Source of the DNA: Lachnospiraceae bacterium AC2031
GTDB taxonomy: Bacteria; Bacillota; Clostridia; Lachnospirales; Lachnospiraceae
Assembly: GCA_000687975.1 (NCBI GenBank)
Contig: JIAB01000001.1
Coordinates: forward strand, 620,001 to 684,000
DNA length: 64,000 nt
Direction of reading: 5' to 3'
The notes below the pieces were generated by a model. That model had not been told where the DNA came from. It saw nothing but the letters and a program-made list of their open reading frames with translations, and ran no database searches. Every line of letters begins with the position of its first letter. Position 1 is the first letter of the stretch. The position numbers were made by a program, and so were the translations under genes. Below, piece after piece: positions 3,001 through 64,000 of this stretch.

Positions 3001-6000
3001 TTCGCCTTACACTTTAGTTAATACTCATAACAACATAGAACAATATGAAAATCCATACTTCTTACCTCTTGGTTATGTTACAAACCCAGAACTAAAACAA
3101 TGGTCCGAGTCAGATCTTGAAGAATATTCATCTTTTATGGATTATCAAAATGAATTTTCCAGGATAATATGCGGAAAAGACCTTTACACAGAAATACTTC
3201 CTCCAGAAGATGATTCCGACGCATATATTAATTCAAGTTTAGGTACACAATCATTATATGGCAGACATGACTTAAATGTTGAATTAAAACTACAGGATGA
3301 AATCAATGGAAAAATCTATGTTTTTTATAATAGACGTATTATATATATAGGAGATACAGAAAAAGCAGAAAATAATACATTCTACTTCACCCTTCACTCC
3401 TTTGTTGAGGATGATGCAGATAATGATGTCGAACTCATCTTTGGTGTTCTAAACGAAGACGTTCTAGCAGAGATCCATAACATTCTTTCTGAAAGTACTG
3501 TCTCATATTATGAAAAAACAAGAAATAGTGTTTCTGGAGAAATAGAAGTTAAAAATGACGGAATACTATATCTCGCCATCCCAGCATTTGATACAACAGA
3601 AATATATGTTGATGGAGTAAAATCAGAAACCTTCGACTATATGTGTGGAATTGGAGTTAATATTACTCAAGGATCTCACATAGTAACAATAAAAGGTACA
3701 TATGGAAACTACTCTACAGGATGCATTGTATCCGGTATCTTTATTGTATTAATCGTTCTATACTTACTGATTTTAAGGATATACAAGAAAAAACATCCTG
3801 ATACTACAGATGAATCAGACAATACTATAGATAAAACAGAATCTTCAAATAATGAAGACTCTAATAATTCAAATGATAAGCCTAATAATAAACTAATAAA
3901 CACCATAAAGAAGATTAATAAAACATATCTTCTAGCTTTTATTATTCCATTCTTAGTACTATTAGTATGCTTTGTTTATAGTGGATTTGCTCCATTTGGT
4001 GCCCGCGATGTAATGACAGCAAATGAGCAGGGAGAATATTTACTACATTATTATGAATTATATGATAGAGTCCAATCCGGAAAGAGTATATTGGGATACA
4101 GTTTATATGAAGGAACAGGATATGATTTTACTACTTTATTAACATACTTTTTATCAGATCCAACCAACCTTCTTATACTACTCTTTTCAAGAAATGATAT
4201 CATCACTGTAGTAAACCTTCTTTATATATTCAAGTTATCCCTAAGTGGTCTTTTCATGAGTATATACCTTAAGAACAGTAAGATGTCTCGATTCTTGAAC
4301 ACAAAATATAAGGGACCAAAGGCAAAAAAGACTGATAAAAAGGATCTTATTATTGGAGGTAAAGATACAGCACCTAAATCCTTAAGAGAAATAATGAATA
4401 ATGTCAACTTCCCTATAGTTGCTTTCTCATTAATGTATTCTCTCTCCAACTATATGCTAGGACCAGGATTCAATACTGCCATGCTAGGCGCAGTATGTAT
4501 TCTTCCTCTTATAATGCTTGGAATGGATAAACTCATATACGAAGGAAAGAAGAAGCTATATATTATCACATACCTTATATCGTTCATTTTGAACTTCCGT
4601 ATAACAGTAATAACAACTTTATTCTTATTACTTTACCTCATACTTCCTAGATATAAGAACTTCAAGCACTTTTTAGTAGTTGTTAAAGATAAGCTGATTT
4701 GTGATATTATCGTTTTCCTTGGAGCCGCATATATTATTATAAACAACATAACGAGTACATTCTGGCATACTGAACTTACAACACTGAGTAAAAATGAGAT
4801 AACAGCTAACCTCTTTGATACAGTGAAGATGATGACAACTGGTATAAAACCAGCCAACATCCTTCTAGCCGGAAACAATACCTACTTATACTCAGGTATC
4901 ATAGCATTGTTATTCCTGCTAGTTTTTATCTTTAATAACAAGATAAGCTTAAGTATAAGAATACGCTACGCTGCAGTGTACACTCTCCTATTTATAGGAT
5001 TTATGATGACTTCACTAAATACTGTACTAAATGGATTTATCTTCTTTGATGGAATATCATCAACATACGCTTACACCATAATATTCCTTGGAATAGTCAT
5101 AGTATATGCAGAGTATAGATTAATTGGTAAAACACAAACCATAAGAATAGTTCTGCCAGCGCTTATCTGCTCAGCACTAATTGTAGGAGCTATATTCCTA
5201 TGCTACTCTTATAACAGTCCTAGCATGTTTATTAAGTCACTGGAGTTTATATTCTTCTATACTATAATAATGCTTGTATATTCAAACAACAGCCTTACAA
5301 AATGGCTAATGAAGCTGCTTATAAGTGGAATACTTATCGTAGAACTAATTTCTTCATTCATTCCTAACTTTAAGGCACTTAGTTGGCTGACATATCCATA
5401 TACAAGAACACTACAATATAAGGAAATGACAGCAATAGACTACACGCATAATAATCTATCACCTAATAGCGTACTCCTACTAAATTCACTTAAATCTACT
5501 CATACGCCATTAGAGATTGCACTTAAAGGCTACAGCTATGTTATATGGAACGGAAATGAAGAAAATACCTTTAAATCGTTAGAACTATCAAATGACGATA
5601 ACGACCTAAAGATTTATAACGTGTCCGGAGTGAAAGACTACTATCTAATTGATGAAAATGTTAAAAACTATGCATATAATAAATATTCACCTCTTGAATC
5701 AATTAATGAGCTTTCACAAAATTATCTACATACGCCTCTATCTTTAAAGAAGTTAGATTATAAAGAACTTGGTGGAAACTATGCTTACTACACAAATATG
5801 ATCTATGTAGAAAGTTCAGAACCTGGTGATCTGTTCTATAATTACTCATACATTACAAACAGAAATGATCAGGCAGCAGGAGAATCAATAGAGTTCACGC
5901 AATATGTAGGCAAAAACAGAGATAAATACGTCAAAGGATTATATGGTTTCTCAAAAGAAAACTATGATGAAACGATGAATACATTAGAAGGCGGCTACTG

Positions 6001-34575: not shown

Positions 34576-34592
34576 CTAATCTTTCCTAATTT

Positions 34593-34621
34593 GGTGCAGT
34601 GGGGACAGACCCCGTTGCACC
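34593..34621. repeat. REP-like hairpin, single unit
   Basis: Arms GGTGCAGTGGGG and CCCCGTTGCACC form a 12-bp stem (two G-T wobbles) around ACAGA. It begins directly beyond the stop codon of the TPP enzyme gene and ends before the next Shine-Dalgarno. Related units lie at 38967-39034 and 63569-63618. Confidence 0.85.
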
Positions 34622-34622
34622 A

Positions 34623-36566
34623 TTACTTAATTTTGTTTGATTCATACTCGTCGCGGTCAAGAAATGGGAACATATCGTCGATTGGTGGGGAGACGATCTT
34701 TCCATCTGGCAGTACCTTTGATGAAAGCTTAGGTGAGAATATCTGTTCATCTGATACTACTACCTCGCAGAGGACTGGGCCTTCTGCTATAAGTGCCGCG
34801 TTGATCATGGTAGTTAGTTCTATACTGCTACTAACTCCATTTTCATCGCTGAATATATTTGAGTTCATGCTGTTAATCTTGAAGTACTTGAAGCCAAATG
34901 TATCTGCCAGCTTATTAAATGGTGGGAAGCTGACTCCATTTCCTTCGCATACTCCCACAAGTCCGTCATGAAACAGATTATTCTGTGTCTGACGGATACT
35001 GTGATAGCCGTTATTGTTAAGAACAAAGAGTTTCAGATTAAGATTGTTTTCCTTTATTGTCTGTAACTCTTGAAGGTTCATCATAAGTGAACCATCACCA
35101 TCGAGACAGATTACTCTGTGGTCTTTCTTTCCATGTTCAAAGCTCTGTTCTACCACCTGATACATTTTACCGAACACCTTAGCGCGGTTATCTGCATTTG
35201 TAAGTGCAACTGCTGCACCAAGTGCTGCTGGAAGACCATATCCCATGCTGGCACATCCGGAGTTAGTAAAGAGTCTTGTTTTGGATTTGATAACTGCTGC
35301 TTGGAAACCAATAACGCAGGCAGATCCATTTCCTGTTATACATACATCATCTTCATCCATAGATTCAAAAAGTGACTTTACGAATACGTATGGATTCAGC
35401 GGCTTATCAACCTCTGAATATTCAGGAAGAACTGCTGGATATTTCTCGTTAATTGAACGGGAGAATTCAAGCCATGACTTGTGATCAGCATTTCCCTTTC
35501 CTGTGTACTGTCCTGCATTTATCTCTCTGATAAGTGCCTGCATCAAATCCTTTACGTCTGCATGCACCTTCATGTCAGGATTTATAGTAGGCTTGTTAAG
35601 CTCATTCTTATCAATATCAACTACAATCTTATATGCATTCTTTGCCCAGTCCTTATAGTTATAGCTGATAAGTCTGATATTAAGACGCGAACCAAGAACT
35701 AGGATAAGGTCTGCATTTTCTGTGGCGAAGTTACCACCACGAGTTCCTACAGTTCCTGGACGTCCAACAAAGTATGGACTTGTATCCGGAAGTGTATCAT
35801 GTGCATTCCAAGCAGTTACAACAGGGATACCAAGTTTATCTACAAGATCAAGGAATTCTTCCTCAGAGTCTCCAAGTCTGATTCCTGTTCCAGCAAAAAT
35901 AAGCGGACGCTTTGCCCGAGCAATTCTTTGAAGTATCTCATCTGCTGTAGCTTCTGTAACTGGAGATGGAACCTGCTCAGTAAGAAGTTCTCGTTCTTCC
36001 TGTGTACCATTGAAATGCTTAAGCTCTTCTGTTTCAATTCGAGCAGCCTGAATATCAAGTGGAATATCAATCCATACAGGGCCGCCTCTACCCTTTGTTG
36101 CAAGGAAAAGAGCCTTCTCAAGATGATATGCAATCTCTGTCTCATCAGTAACCATGACTGCATACTTTGTCATATTTCGAACACTTTCAATTATCTGATA
36201 TTCCTGATCTCCCAGCTGTCTAAGAGGGATATCAGTTGCCCAGGTTGTTGTCTCTCTTTTAACCTGACCTGAGATAACAAACATTGGTATTGAATCTAAC
36301 CAACCACCAAGTACACCTGTTATTGCGTTAGTACCACCAGGACCGCTAGTTACATTTACTGCTGCAAGACGTCCCGTCAGTCTTGTGTAGCCTTCTGCTG
36401 CAACACTACTTCCCTGTTCATTATGGTTGAATATAAAGTTTAAGCCTTCTTTGTGGCCAAGACTATCGTTCAGGTGCATGGCGCCACCGCCTGTAACACC
36501 GAACACTGTGTCAATTCCATTTGCCACCAAAAAGTCTGCTACGTAATCAGATAATTTCTGTATCAT
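34623..36566 (-). CDS. Thiamine diphosphate-dependent enzyme, acetolactate synthase-like
   Basis: A 647-residue ThDP enzyme with the three usual domains. The pyrimidine-binding domain has the catalytic Glu in FNHNEQGSSVAAEGY; the middle domain has RPGTVGTRGG and VLGSRLNIR; the pyrophosphate domain has GDGSLMMN followed by NNNGYHS, the Mg-ThDP motif. It is about 80 residues longer than biosynthetic acetolactate synthases, has no small-subunit neighbour, and sits with an aldolase, a phosphatase and a flippase rather than with ilv genes. Related enzymes in glycan loci add an acyl unit to a sugar (YerE for yersiniose). The true donor and acceptor are unknown. GAGGAAAAG precedes the ATG. Confidence 0.82.
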   Translation of the reverse strand: MIQKLSDYVADFLVANGIDTVFGVTGGGAMHLNDSLGHKEGLNFIFNHNEQGSSVAAEGYTRLTGRLAAVNVTSGPGGTNAITGVLGGWLDSIPMFVISGQVKRETTTWATDIPLRQLGDQEYQIIESVRNMTKYAVMVTDETEIAYHLEKALFLATKGRGGPVWIDIPLDIQAARIETEELKHFNGTQEERELLTEQVPSPVTEATADEILQRIARAKRPLIFAGTGIRLGDSEEEFLDLVDKLGIPVVTAWNAHDTLPDTSPYFVGRPGTVGTRGGNFATENADLILVLGSRLNIRLISYNYKDWAKNAYKIVVDIDKNELNKPTINPDMKVHADVKDLMQALIREINAGQYTGKGNADHKSWLEFSRSINEKYPAVLPEYSEVDKPLNPYVFVKSLFESMDEDDVCITGNGSACVIGFQAAVIKSKTRLFTNSGCASMGYGLPAALGAAVALTNADNRAKVFGKMYQVVEQSFEHGKKDHRVICLDGDGSLMMNLQELQTIKENNLNLKLFVLNNNGYHSIRQTQNNLFHDGLVGVCEGNGVSFPPFNKLADTFGFKYFKINSMNSNIFSDENGVSSSIELTTMINAALIAEGPVLCEVVVSDEQIFSPKLSSKVLPDGKIVSPPIDDMFPFLDRDEYESNKIK

Positions 36567-38937: not shown

Positions 38938-38966
38938 TTAATATATAAACCCTTTTCTTTATATTT

Positions 38967-39034
38967 GGTGCAGGTAGGGACAGACCTCGGTGCAGTGGGG
39001 ACGGACCCCACTGCACCAAATGACCCCACAGCAC
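38967..39034. repeat. REP-like composite repeat between polC and the HAD gene
   Basis: A degenerate half unit (38967-38988) is followed by a perfect hairpin, GGTGCAGTGGGG-ACGGA-CCCCACTGCACC (38989-39017), and a further remnant containing GACCCCACAGCAC to 39034, four bases from the polC stop codon. The first 51 bases match the priA copy at 63569-63618 at about 90 percent of positions. Confidence 0.88.
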
Positions 39035-61952: not shown

Positions 61953-64000
61953 TTAGATAATTCGCATTGGGTTGAAGTCGTACTGGATCTCTACGCTGTC
62001 TTTCTTTAACTCTAGTGCTTCAAAGATGTCATTAAATGTAATGTTAGAAATCTCAGCGACCTTGGTTAGTATATCATATTCCTTCGACTTTATATAGATG
62101 ACCCGTCGGAAGATGTTATTAATTCGGTAAATATATGCTTCAGTTGGCCCAACCACGTCTAGGCCACCGGTTGACATAATTTCTGCATTAGTTGACATAA
62201 CATTTGAGTCGCGATACTTCTTTATCGCATCAGTTACCTTCTGTGACATATCTATACATAAGCCTTCATCTGCTGAACTCACACATATACCAAGCAAATG
62301 GTACATCGGCGGATAATGCAGAATCTCACGATATGATACTTCATAGTTATAGAAGGTCTCATAGTCCTGAGCCGCAGCTGTAGTGATTGCATAATGCTCT
62401 GGCTGATAGGTCTGTATAACCACATGTCCTGGCAGCTCATCTCGTCCAGCTCTTCCAGCCGACTGAGTCAGAAGGTCAAATGTCCTCTCTGCAGATTCGA
62501 AGTCCGTATCGAAGAGACTAAGGTCCGCAAGAATATTTCCTACAACAGTTACCTTAGGAAAATCATGTCCTTTGACTATCATTTGAGTTCCAATTAGACA
62601 GTCAGCCTTACCCTCACGGAACTTCTTTATTATTGCGCCGTGGCTTCCCTTCTTTTGAGTAGTGTCACGGTCCATTCGAAGAGTCTTTATCTTTGGGAAG
62701 AGATCGCGTATAGTCTCTTCCACCGTTTCTGTACCTATGCCTAGTCCACCGATCAGCTTGGATTTACATTTGGGACATATATTTGGAACAGGTTCTGTAT
62801 GTCCACAATAGTGACACATCAGAATATCAGCGCCACCTGGAACTATAGTCTTATGCTGCGATAAAGATACATCGCAGTTAGGACACTTCACTACTTCACC
62901 ACAGTCTCTGCAGGAGATAAATGTCTTGTACCCGCGTCTGTTAATGAAGATCATGGCCTGCTCGCCGCGACTAAATGCAGTAGCCAGTCTGTTATAAAGC
63001 GTCTGTGAGATGATGCTACGATTTCCAGCACGAAGCTCCTCGCGCATATCTACCACTTCTACTTCAGGCAGTACTGAACCCTTTACTCGGTTTAGCAGGC
63101 TGTAAAGCTTATACTCACCATGCTTCGCCTTATAGTAGCTCTCAATACTTGGAGTAGCTGTACCAAGGATTACTCTGGCACCTTCAAGCTCCGCCCTCTT
63201 TATTGCCACCTCACGGGCATGATACTTCGGAGTCTTCTCACTCTTATAAGATGTATCATGTTCCTCATCGATAATAATAAGCCCAAGATTCTGAAACGGT
63301 GCAAAAAGCGCCGATCTTGGACCGATCATTATATGAGTCTCACCATTTAAGGCCTTCATAAACTCACGATACTTCTCGCCTTTACTAAGCTGAGAATTCA
63401 GTATCGATATATTATCTTGAAAATAACTGCTGAATCTGGCAACTGTCTGATAGGTAAGGGCAATCTCAGGAACAAGAACGATAACATCCTGTCCACGGGA
63501 GAGAATCTCCTCCGCCATCTTTATGTAAACCTCTGTCTTACCACTTCCAGTCACCCCATGCAGTAAATGTGCAACGGGGTCCGTCCCCACTGCACCAAGG
63601 TCTGTCCCCTCCTGCACCATTTCCTGGCAGAAGTCATCGACTATGGCCTGCTGCTGTGGTTCCAGTTCATCGATAGGCTGAAATTCAGGGATATTATCCC
63701 TAACATCTATCTCTGTCTTTCTTTCACGTACCTTTTCTTTTACAGGCATTACGGTCATCAGCGCACTGATCATGGTACAGCCGTAACGCTCCTTCATCCA
63801 GGCAGCCAGTCTAATCAGCTTACTCTCAATAGAGATGGCTGAGGTCGACACCTCCTGAATGCTCTTAATCTTGTTTATATCGTAGTTCGGCTCATCTGCG
63901 AGTCCGATCACATATCCAGTTCTGATGCGGTTGCCCTGGCCAAATGGAACTTTAACCACCGCTCCTACTGCAACCACTTCAAGGAGTTCATCCGGAATTC
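61953..64000 (-). CDS. priA: Primosomal helicase PriA, 5' end outside window
   Basis: PriA restarts stalled replication forks. The frame is open to the right edge: upstream of a GTG at 63977 the codons still read as PriA (IPDELLEVV), so the N-terminus is missing. About 680 residues are visible: the end of the DNA-binding domain, Walker A LLHGVTGSGKTE, DEEHD, the zinc-binding cysteines (CRDC, CPNC, CHYC, CPKC) and the C-terminal helicase motifs (GTQMIVKGHDFP, QSAGRAGR). About 17 residues directly before Walker A (numbered about 120-136 from the GTG) are encoded by a REP-like repeat and read VQEGTDLGAVGTDPVAH. Confidence 0.96.
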   Translation of the reverse strand, partial: IPDELLEVVAVGAVVKVPFGQGNRIRTGYVIGLADEPNYDINKIKSIQEVSTSAISIESKLIRLAAWMKERYGCTMISALMTVMPVKEKVRERKTEIDVRDNIPEFQPIDELEPQQQAIVDDFCQEMVQEGTDLGAVGTDPVAHLLHGVTGSGKTEVYIKMAEEILSRGQDVIVLVPEIALTYQTVARFSSYFQDNISILNSQLSKGEKYREFMKALNGETHIMIGPRSALFAPFQNLGLIIIDEEHDTSYKSEKTPKYHAREVAIKRAELEGARVILGTATPSIESYYKAKHGEYKLYSLLNRVKGSVLPEVEVVDMREELRAGNRSIISQTLYNRLATAFSRGEQAMIFINRRGYKTFISCRDCGEVVKCPNCDVSLSQHKTIVPGGADILMCHYCGHTEPVPNICPKCKSKLIGGLGIGTETVEETIRDLFPKIKTLRMDRDTTQKKGSHGAIIKKFREGKADCLIGTQMIVKGHDFPKVTVVGNILADLSLFDTDFESAERTFDLLTQSAGRAGRDELPGHVVIQTYQPEHYAITTAAAQDYETFYNYEVSYREILHYPPMYHLLGICVSSADEGLCIDMSQKVTDAIKKYRDSNVMSTNAEIMSTGGLDVVGPTEAYIYRINNIFRRVIYIKSKEYDILTKVAEISNITFNDIFEALELKKDSVEIQYDFNPMRII
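63569..63618. repeat. REP-like composite repeat inside the priA coding sequence
   Basis: A 50-base element whose minus strand runs from GGTGCAGGAGGGGACAGACC to GACGGACCCCGTTGCAC. It contains a full hairpin unit (63569-63596) plus a half unit, the same composite as at 38967-39017, with five differences. It is translated in frame. Confidence 0.88.

Follow-up and report, generated by a model that had tools for sequence, protein, structure and literature searches.

A small palindromic repeat is read in frame through the priA gene of Lachnospiraceae bacterium AC2031, in the loop directly before the Walker A motif, and three other proteins of this organism contain a copy as well. It is very likely that a REP-type element has spread in this genome and that its few in-frame genic copies are tolerated in surface loops that were already variable. 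The element, as a 51-nt composite or a 27-nt hairpin, would have multiplied within the species, probably through a RAYT-like transposase, which we link to the repeat because its gene is flanked by repeat copies. Nearly all copies that survive would be intergenic, those in genes having been lost unless they kept the frame and struck a disposable loop; the genic copies would owe their survival to landing in surface loops that already varied freely in length and sequence. A tiny dispersed hairpin would in this manner become a peptide of a core protein exactly where length is already free to vary.

The repeat copy in priA

The window analysed here is a stretch of 64,000 nt of AC2031 DNA (GCA_000687975.1, contig JIAB01000001.1, positions 620,001-684,000, forward strand). 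The gene for primosomal protein N' (priA, replication restart helicase) lies on its minus strand at 61953..63998, with its 5' end outside the window. Read as an ORF, the frame gives 681 amino acids within the window, runs past 63998 and is open across the repeat. Its product scores 597 bits against the TIGR00595 priA profile (cut-off 230) and has the Pfam domains PriA_3primeBD, DEAD and PriA_C. An earlier note on this DNA had described an unbroken frame through a repeat at 63569-63618, and this was borne out, the composite being 51 nt long (63569..63619, minus strand). It spans part of codon 127, codons 128-143 (VQEGTDLGAVGTDPVA) and the first base of codon 144. Translation thus runs from M127 through VQEGTDLGAVGTDPVA to H144, and the Walker A strand and motif, LLHGVTGSGKT (63534..63566, minus strand), follow directly after the repeat-coded loop. 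The open frame predicts the stretch GTDLGAVGTDPVAH in the protein. The 27-nt hairpin half of the composite occupies 63569..63595 (minus strand), where the pattern matches exactly and the DNA is predicted to fold.

The priA copy is up to 96% identical to other genomic copies. Within the window it is 90% complementary across 51 nt to a composite copy at 38966..39016 (plus strand) and 92% complementary across 37 nt to a solo hairpin at 34591..34627 (plus strand), a likeness that is far beyond chance. Both of these copies sit between long open frames, in agreement with the earlier statement that the repeat is intergenic elsewhere in the window.

A GC-rich hairpin in the mRNA had also been proposed. 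The 11-pair stem predicted for the RNA, with two G-U pairs, is plausible, but its folding is not unusual: the region folds no better than shuffled sequences (z -1.06 for 91 nt as RNA, z -1.23 for 51 nt as DNA). No terminator-like site was found around the copy. An AlphaFold model of this part of PriA, built from 29 sequences (28 of the 29 loci with frames checked; mean pLDDT 84.6, pTM 0.84), has a helix at residues 114-129, pLDDT below 50 at 131-137 and a strand at 143-148 leading into Walker A. The model shows the repeat peptide (residues 128-143) as a low-confidence loop, that is, a predicted flexible site; the copy would form most of a disordered loop between the pre-core helix and the Walker A strand. 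A phmmer search aligned the peptide to residues of PriA chains in the PDB; since the invariant Q116 assigns this part of the chains to the helix preceding the loop, we take the match for a misalignment.

The repeat family and a candidate transposase

The genome was searched as one contig of 3,191,482 bases (C1). In the composite, a shortened unit, [TG]GTGCAnnnGGGGACAGACCTyG, precedes the 27-nt hairpin (GTGCAnnGGGG, a 5-nt loop, CCCCnnTGCAC), both having the same orientation; the composite is 49-51 nt long, and a few copies have one extra direct unit. With up to three mismatches the composite pattern has 82 matches in the genome, 54 of them exact, and the hairpin pattern has 111 matches per strand genome-wide, while the reversed pattern gave none in either case. 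The proposal of a REP-like palindrome is thus upheld by the genome search. The family resembles REPs in having a palindromic core within a unit of about 20-60 bp, in its high copy number (111 matches) and in being mainly extragenic: 89 of 93 clusters carry no in-frame genic signal, as judged by codon use rather than annotation. Passages of PMC2817692 put REPs at usually more than 100 per genome, which places 111 at the low end. The composite is no REPIN, in which two REPs form an inverted doublet, since its halves share one orientation. The constant end of GTAG/CGTC REPs is likewise absent: the copies listed start with [TG]GTGCA, and GTAG is present in some copies only, inside the variable bases following GTGCA.

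The cluster analysis took in 100 of the 111 hairpin matches, making 93 clusters; three of the 100 hairpins, too unlike the consensus, were omitted from the conservation and T/A-tract counts. Stop codons are missing from all six frames in 78 of the 93 clusters, suggesting that place and length decide survival in genes. The hairpin loop occurs in both orientations (plus strand: TCCGT in 39 and ACGGA in 25 of 97). Its orientation relative to the composite also differs, with TCCGT at C1:3031640 and ACGGA at C1:3033121, and the hairpin behaves as if able to flip.

Copies crowd after stop codons: 79 of the 93 clusters have, on one strand, an open frame of at least 150 codons whose end lies no more than 400 nt upstream, at a median distance of 11 nt from stop to copy and with 56 within 30 nt, counts made with no control and on frames not proven to be genes. 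The repeat copy at C1:2762274-2762344 supplies, 13 nt in from its edge, the stop codon of a 495-codon open frame and may therefore code for the last residues of that frame. Thirty of 93 non-genic hairpins have a T or A tract next to them and would resemble intrinsic terminators; such tracts show no clear depletion in genes, where 1 of 4 copies has one. Rfam at gathering scores gave no match in the window, nor in the two further loci searched (L004, L011).

Three of 41 genomes of the genus match (AC2031, its sister G032, and G007), and at least three of 397 in the family (AC2031 and, in two other genera, a genome each with one short match), a count for which only two candidates were scored in most genomes having more, so that rare copies could escape it. 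The sister G032 has two solo hairpins about 1.4 kb apart on one contig (C119:4129-4164 and 5595-5629).

Y1_Tnp has three matches in the AC2031 genome. One is a gene at C1:3031795-3032532 (245 codons, TTG start), preceded at 104 nt by one composite copy and followed, 2 nt past its stop codon, by another. These flanking composites are direct, not inverted, and the hairpin alone is near-symmetric. The product has the Y1/HUH domain (PF01797, E 2.2e-11, 44.4 bits versus a threshold of 23), and it carries an NHVH motif and a tyrosine region like those of HUH/Y1 enzymes. Its sole NCBIfam match is the curated RAYT model NF047646, at 51.3 bits, below the cut-off of 80. We call the product RAYT-like. 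The RAYT search suggested in the earlier note has therefore given one Y1/HUH gene flanked by copies, although not one that reaches the curated model's cut-off. Movement of the repeat would probably be due to this RAYT-like transposase. No Y1_Tnp match was found in the sister G032, although two hairpins of the family are present there. A second long Y1_Tnp gene of AC2031, at C1:1993685-1993987 in a 284-codon frame, has no repeat copy within 1.5 kb on either side and could act on a different repeat family. With its modest size, its apparent youth and its single candidate transposase, the family described here offers a system for testing REP movement.

Four genic copies and the loops that hold them

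We scored coding potential by codon use, taking 35 long open frames of the window as the training set. Twenty-four of the 93 clusters lie in some frame that stays open for 30 codons or more to either side, a limit that would miss copies close to gene ends, and four of these 24 score as coding on both sides. These four in-frame genic copies (4/93 clusters) are in PriA, a CvfB-like S1 protein (C1:2415272-2415321, reading ...GAEGTDLGAVGTDPIAR...), an OmpR-type response regulator (C1:2400076-2400123, reading ...MVQEGQTSVQGGPSPLHVILLDVMLP...) and TsaD (C1:2442794-2442820, reading ...ANYLGAAGTDPIAPKYMCLVASGGHS...). The CvfB-like protein has the domains CvfB_WH (E 2.1e-21) and S1_2, and the regulator has Response_reg and Trans_reg_C. 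For TsaD the upstream coding score is weak (0.8); its product passes TIGR03723 (435 bits versus 296) and aligns with relatives over the full length. As in RPEs, then, a palindrome is read in frame within genes, here four, judging from their open frames. It had been asked whether the loop tolerates insertion or the repeat enters genes as in-frame peptides; with four of 93 clusters in frame in genes, both hold.

PriA was found in all 61 genomes, AC2031 included. The repeat peptide is absent from all 29 PriA relatives displayed, which is the result that the suggested alignment was to look for, and it is likewise in none of the 29 TsaD relatives displayed, nor in the 21 CvfB and 11 response-regulator relatives aligned. 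A first motif scan missed 4 of the 11 close regulator relatives and 13 of the 21 CvfB relatives in the genus, and both sets were redone in full. The claim that PriA homologues are shorter at this point is correct for many species of the genus, with a loop of about 8-12 residues, but not for close relatives, which have up to 30; the sister G032 has 20, as against 21 here. Among 11 ingroup sequences the PriA loop has 9-30 residues, and two of these loops (L015 and L019) are near-identical. The PriA loop pattern caught six of the remaining sequences outside the ingroup, and the rest were seen in the display of 29 relatives.

The TsaD loop is 10 residues long in all 19 outgroup species and 8-27 residues long in the 11 ingroup species, AC2031 included: 13 here, nearly all repeat, 20 in G032 and 27 in G007. 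Among the 30 aligned species this is the sole length-variable site apart from the ends. The 11 ingroup species form one clade with support 0.996, with weaker internal branches. The CvfB loop is compact in 16 of 16 outgroup sequences, while five close relatives have five different fillers. One genome, G005 (assembly 73% complete), was placed in the ingroup for CvfB, where it has a filler, and kept out of it for PriA, where its loop is 12 residues long. In the response regulator, the stretch preceding VILLDVMLP varies among 11 relatives, outgroup included. In one clade of the genus, TsaD, CvfB and PriA each have a single point with a polar, often acidic loop of changing length (TsaD loci L303-L313, CvfB loci L201-L206, PriA loci L012-L022).

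Each of the four copies overlaps a position at which other species have an indel. The placements that would do so number 10 of 320 in TsaD, 3 of 196 in CvfB, 81 of 617 in PriA and 25 of 210 in the regulator, and their product is about 7e-6, a post hoc value that treats the four proteins as independent; the overlap is not significant for PriA alone or for the regulator alone. One of 19 CvfB and two of 29 PriA sequences were too short and were omitted from this test. The description of the peptide as simply extra does not fit these results, as all four copies are at length-variable sites, the loop in PriA, CvfB and TsaD has another length and sequence in each close relative, and the TsaD copy makes up almost the whole of a loop that is longer in the sister. 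Repeat copies may be regarded as naturally occurring tags that show where PriA, TsaD, CvfB-like proteins and response regulators have permissive loops.

The site of the intergenic copy at 34591 is empty in an alignment with G032, so that copy was added. At the 38966 copy the sister is too diverged to align and yielded no empty site, and none with exact junctions was found for any genic copy. In PriA, the repeat makes up 16 whole codons of the 21-residue loop, and the non-repeat residues of this loop are fewer than the loop residues of any relative measured (8 or more). This, with a TsaD loop that is nearly all repeat, suggests that the old loop is largely gone in both proteins. TsaD and PriA are compatible with replacement at landing as well as with later trimming, and the CvfB copy would also fit plain addition. 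On balance, replacement of the old loop by the repeat, or its trimming into that loop, seems to us more likely than addition.

Other explanations and known systems

The genic copies could instead be functional, with the mRNA hairpin or the peptide GTDLGAVGTDP regulating translation or activity and being kept by selection. The hairpin is indeed kept in all four genic copies, with 25-26 of 27 consensus bases and 9-10 of 11 Watson-Crick pairs, and the copies share a reading frame in three of four cases and the element's orientation in all four. Intergenic copies, however, are as well preserved (mean identity to the consensus 0.93, mean 9.8 of 11 pairs), so youth accounts for the conservation of the genic hairpins, and the agreements in frame and orientation are not significant, each having a chance of about 0.1 by our own estimate. 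The ordinary folding of the priA copy and the lack of a terminator-like site also argue against function, the fourth genic copy codes for a different peptide, and relatives do without. We consider a function very unlikely; the repeat peptide is most likely a tolerated filler that has none. Descent from ancestral protein sequence that resembles the repeat, or derivation of the repeat from priA, might be suggested by a palindrome that is open in frame within an otherwise intact PriA. We give this practically no weight, and the 111 hairpins, the three other proteins with the repeat and the lack of the peptide in 29 of 29 displayed PriA relatives rule out an ancestral origin; the earlier note had named relatives that share the peptide without the palindrome as the observation that would overturn an insertion, and the outcome went the other way.

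It may also be asked whether this clade's hypervariable loops consist of old repeats, with successive repeat families landing at the same points, decaying and being replaced. The fillers of PriA, CvfB and TsaD differ in nearly all close relatives at the same point, and the outgroup is compact in TsaD (19/19) and CvfB (16/16). There is a precedent in Rickettsia, where, according to parts of PMC3767692, a site in one orthologue may hold an RPE of one group while the corresponding or a nearby site in another holds an RPE of a different group or lacks one. Against this, most of the relatives' loops are polar, and none has the high GC content of the repeat. Only 4 of the 25 loops folded reach a z below -2; by eye, the loops that one species has in different genes are unalike, and plain drift of a disordered loop suffices. 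A common repeat origin of the relatives' loops was not found by fold strength and composition. We therefore regard old repeats as an unlikely source of these loops, and hold it equally doubtful that repeats renew the loops of PriA, CvfB and TsaD by replacement, with cycles of landing and decay making them hypervariable. The preferred reading remains that a REP-type element that spread in this species was tolerated where loops already varied.

Rickettsia palindromic elements (RPE) were reportedly described by Ogata et al. in 2000. Some RPEs are in frame inside protein-coding genes of Rickettsia, as stated in portions of PMC3767692 and PMC10969869. The AC2031 repeat is like them in being a dispersed palindrome that is sometimes in frame and in that related species have a different element, or lack one, at the corresponding site, but, going by the same portions, RPEs are 100-150 bp long, versus 27-51 nt here, they belong to another host, and about half of those in R. 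conorii are genic, versus 4 of 93 clusters. Element size speaks against homology to RPE families.

GTAG/CGTC REPs are read in frame in many proteins of several bacteria, with targets that include DNA synthesis and repair genes, and the proposed explanation is flexible linkers or loops, according to excerpts of PMC3733652, in whose main text "Clostridi" and "Eubacterium" do not occur. The AC2031 repeat differs from these in lacking a constant GTAG or CGTC end. A Y1/HUH transposase gene between two high-copy palindromes is a likeness to the REP/RAYT systems as set out in sections of PMC2817692, whereas the definition there differs from our case, in which the flanking copies are direct and the RAYT model falls below its cut-off. 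In-frame palindromes in proteins are thus already known, and the AC2031 repeat is another family doing so. As far as we searched, what is new is the repeat family, the host family and a comparison that places all four copies on length-variable sites; a search of open-licence papers with few terms turned up no such case in Lachnospiraceae. The enterobacterial repeats RU-1 to RU-3 are also small mobile repeats read within annotated proteins, although, by the extracts of PMC2759123, they are 103-168 bp long, MITE-like and found in other hosts. In Pseudomonas fluorescens, 14 REP 16-mers overlap genes, as reported in a part of PMC3116915.
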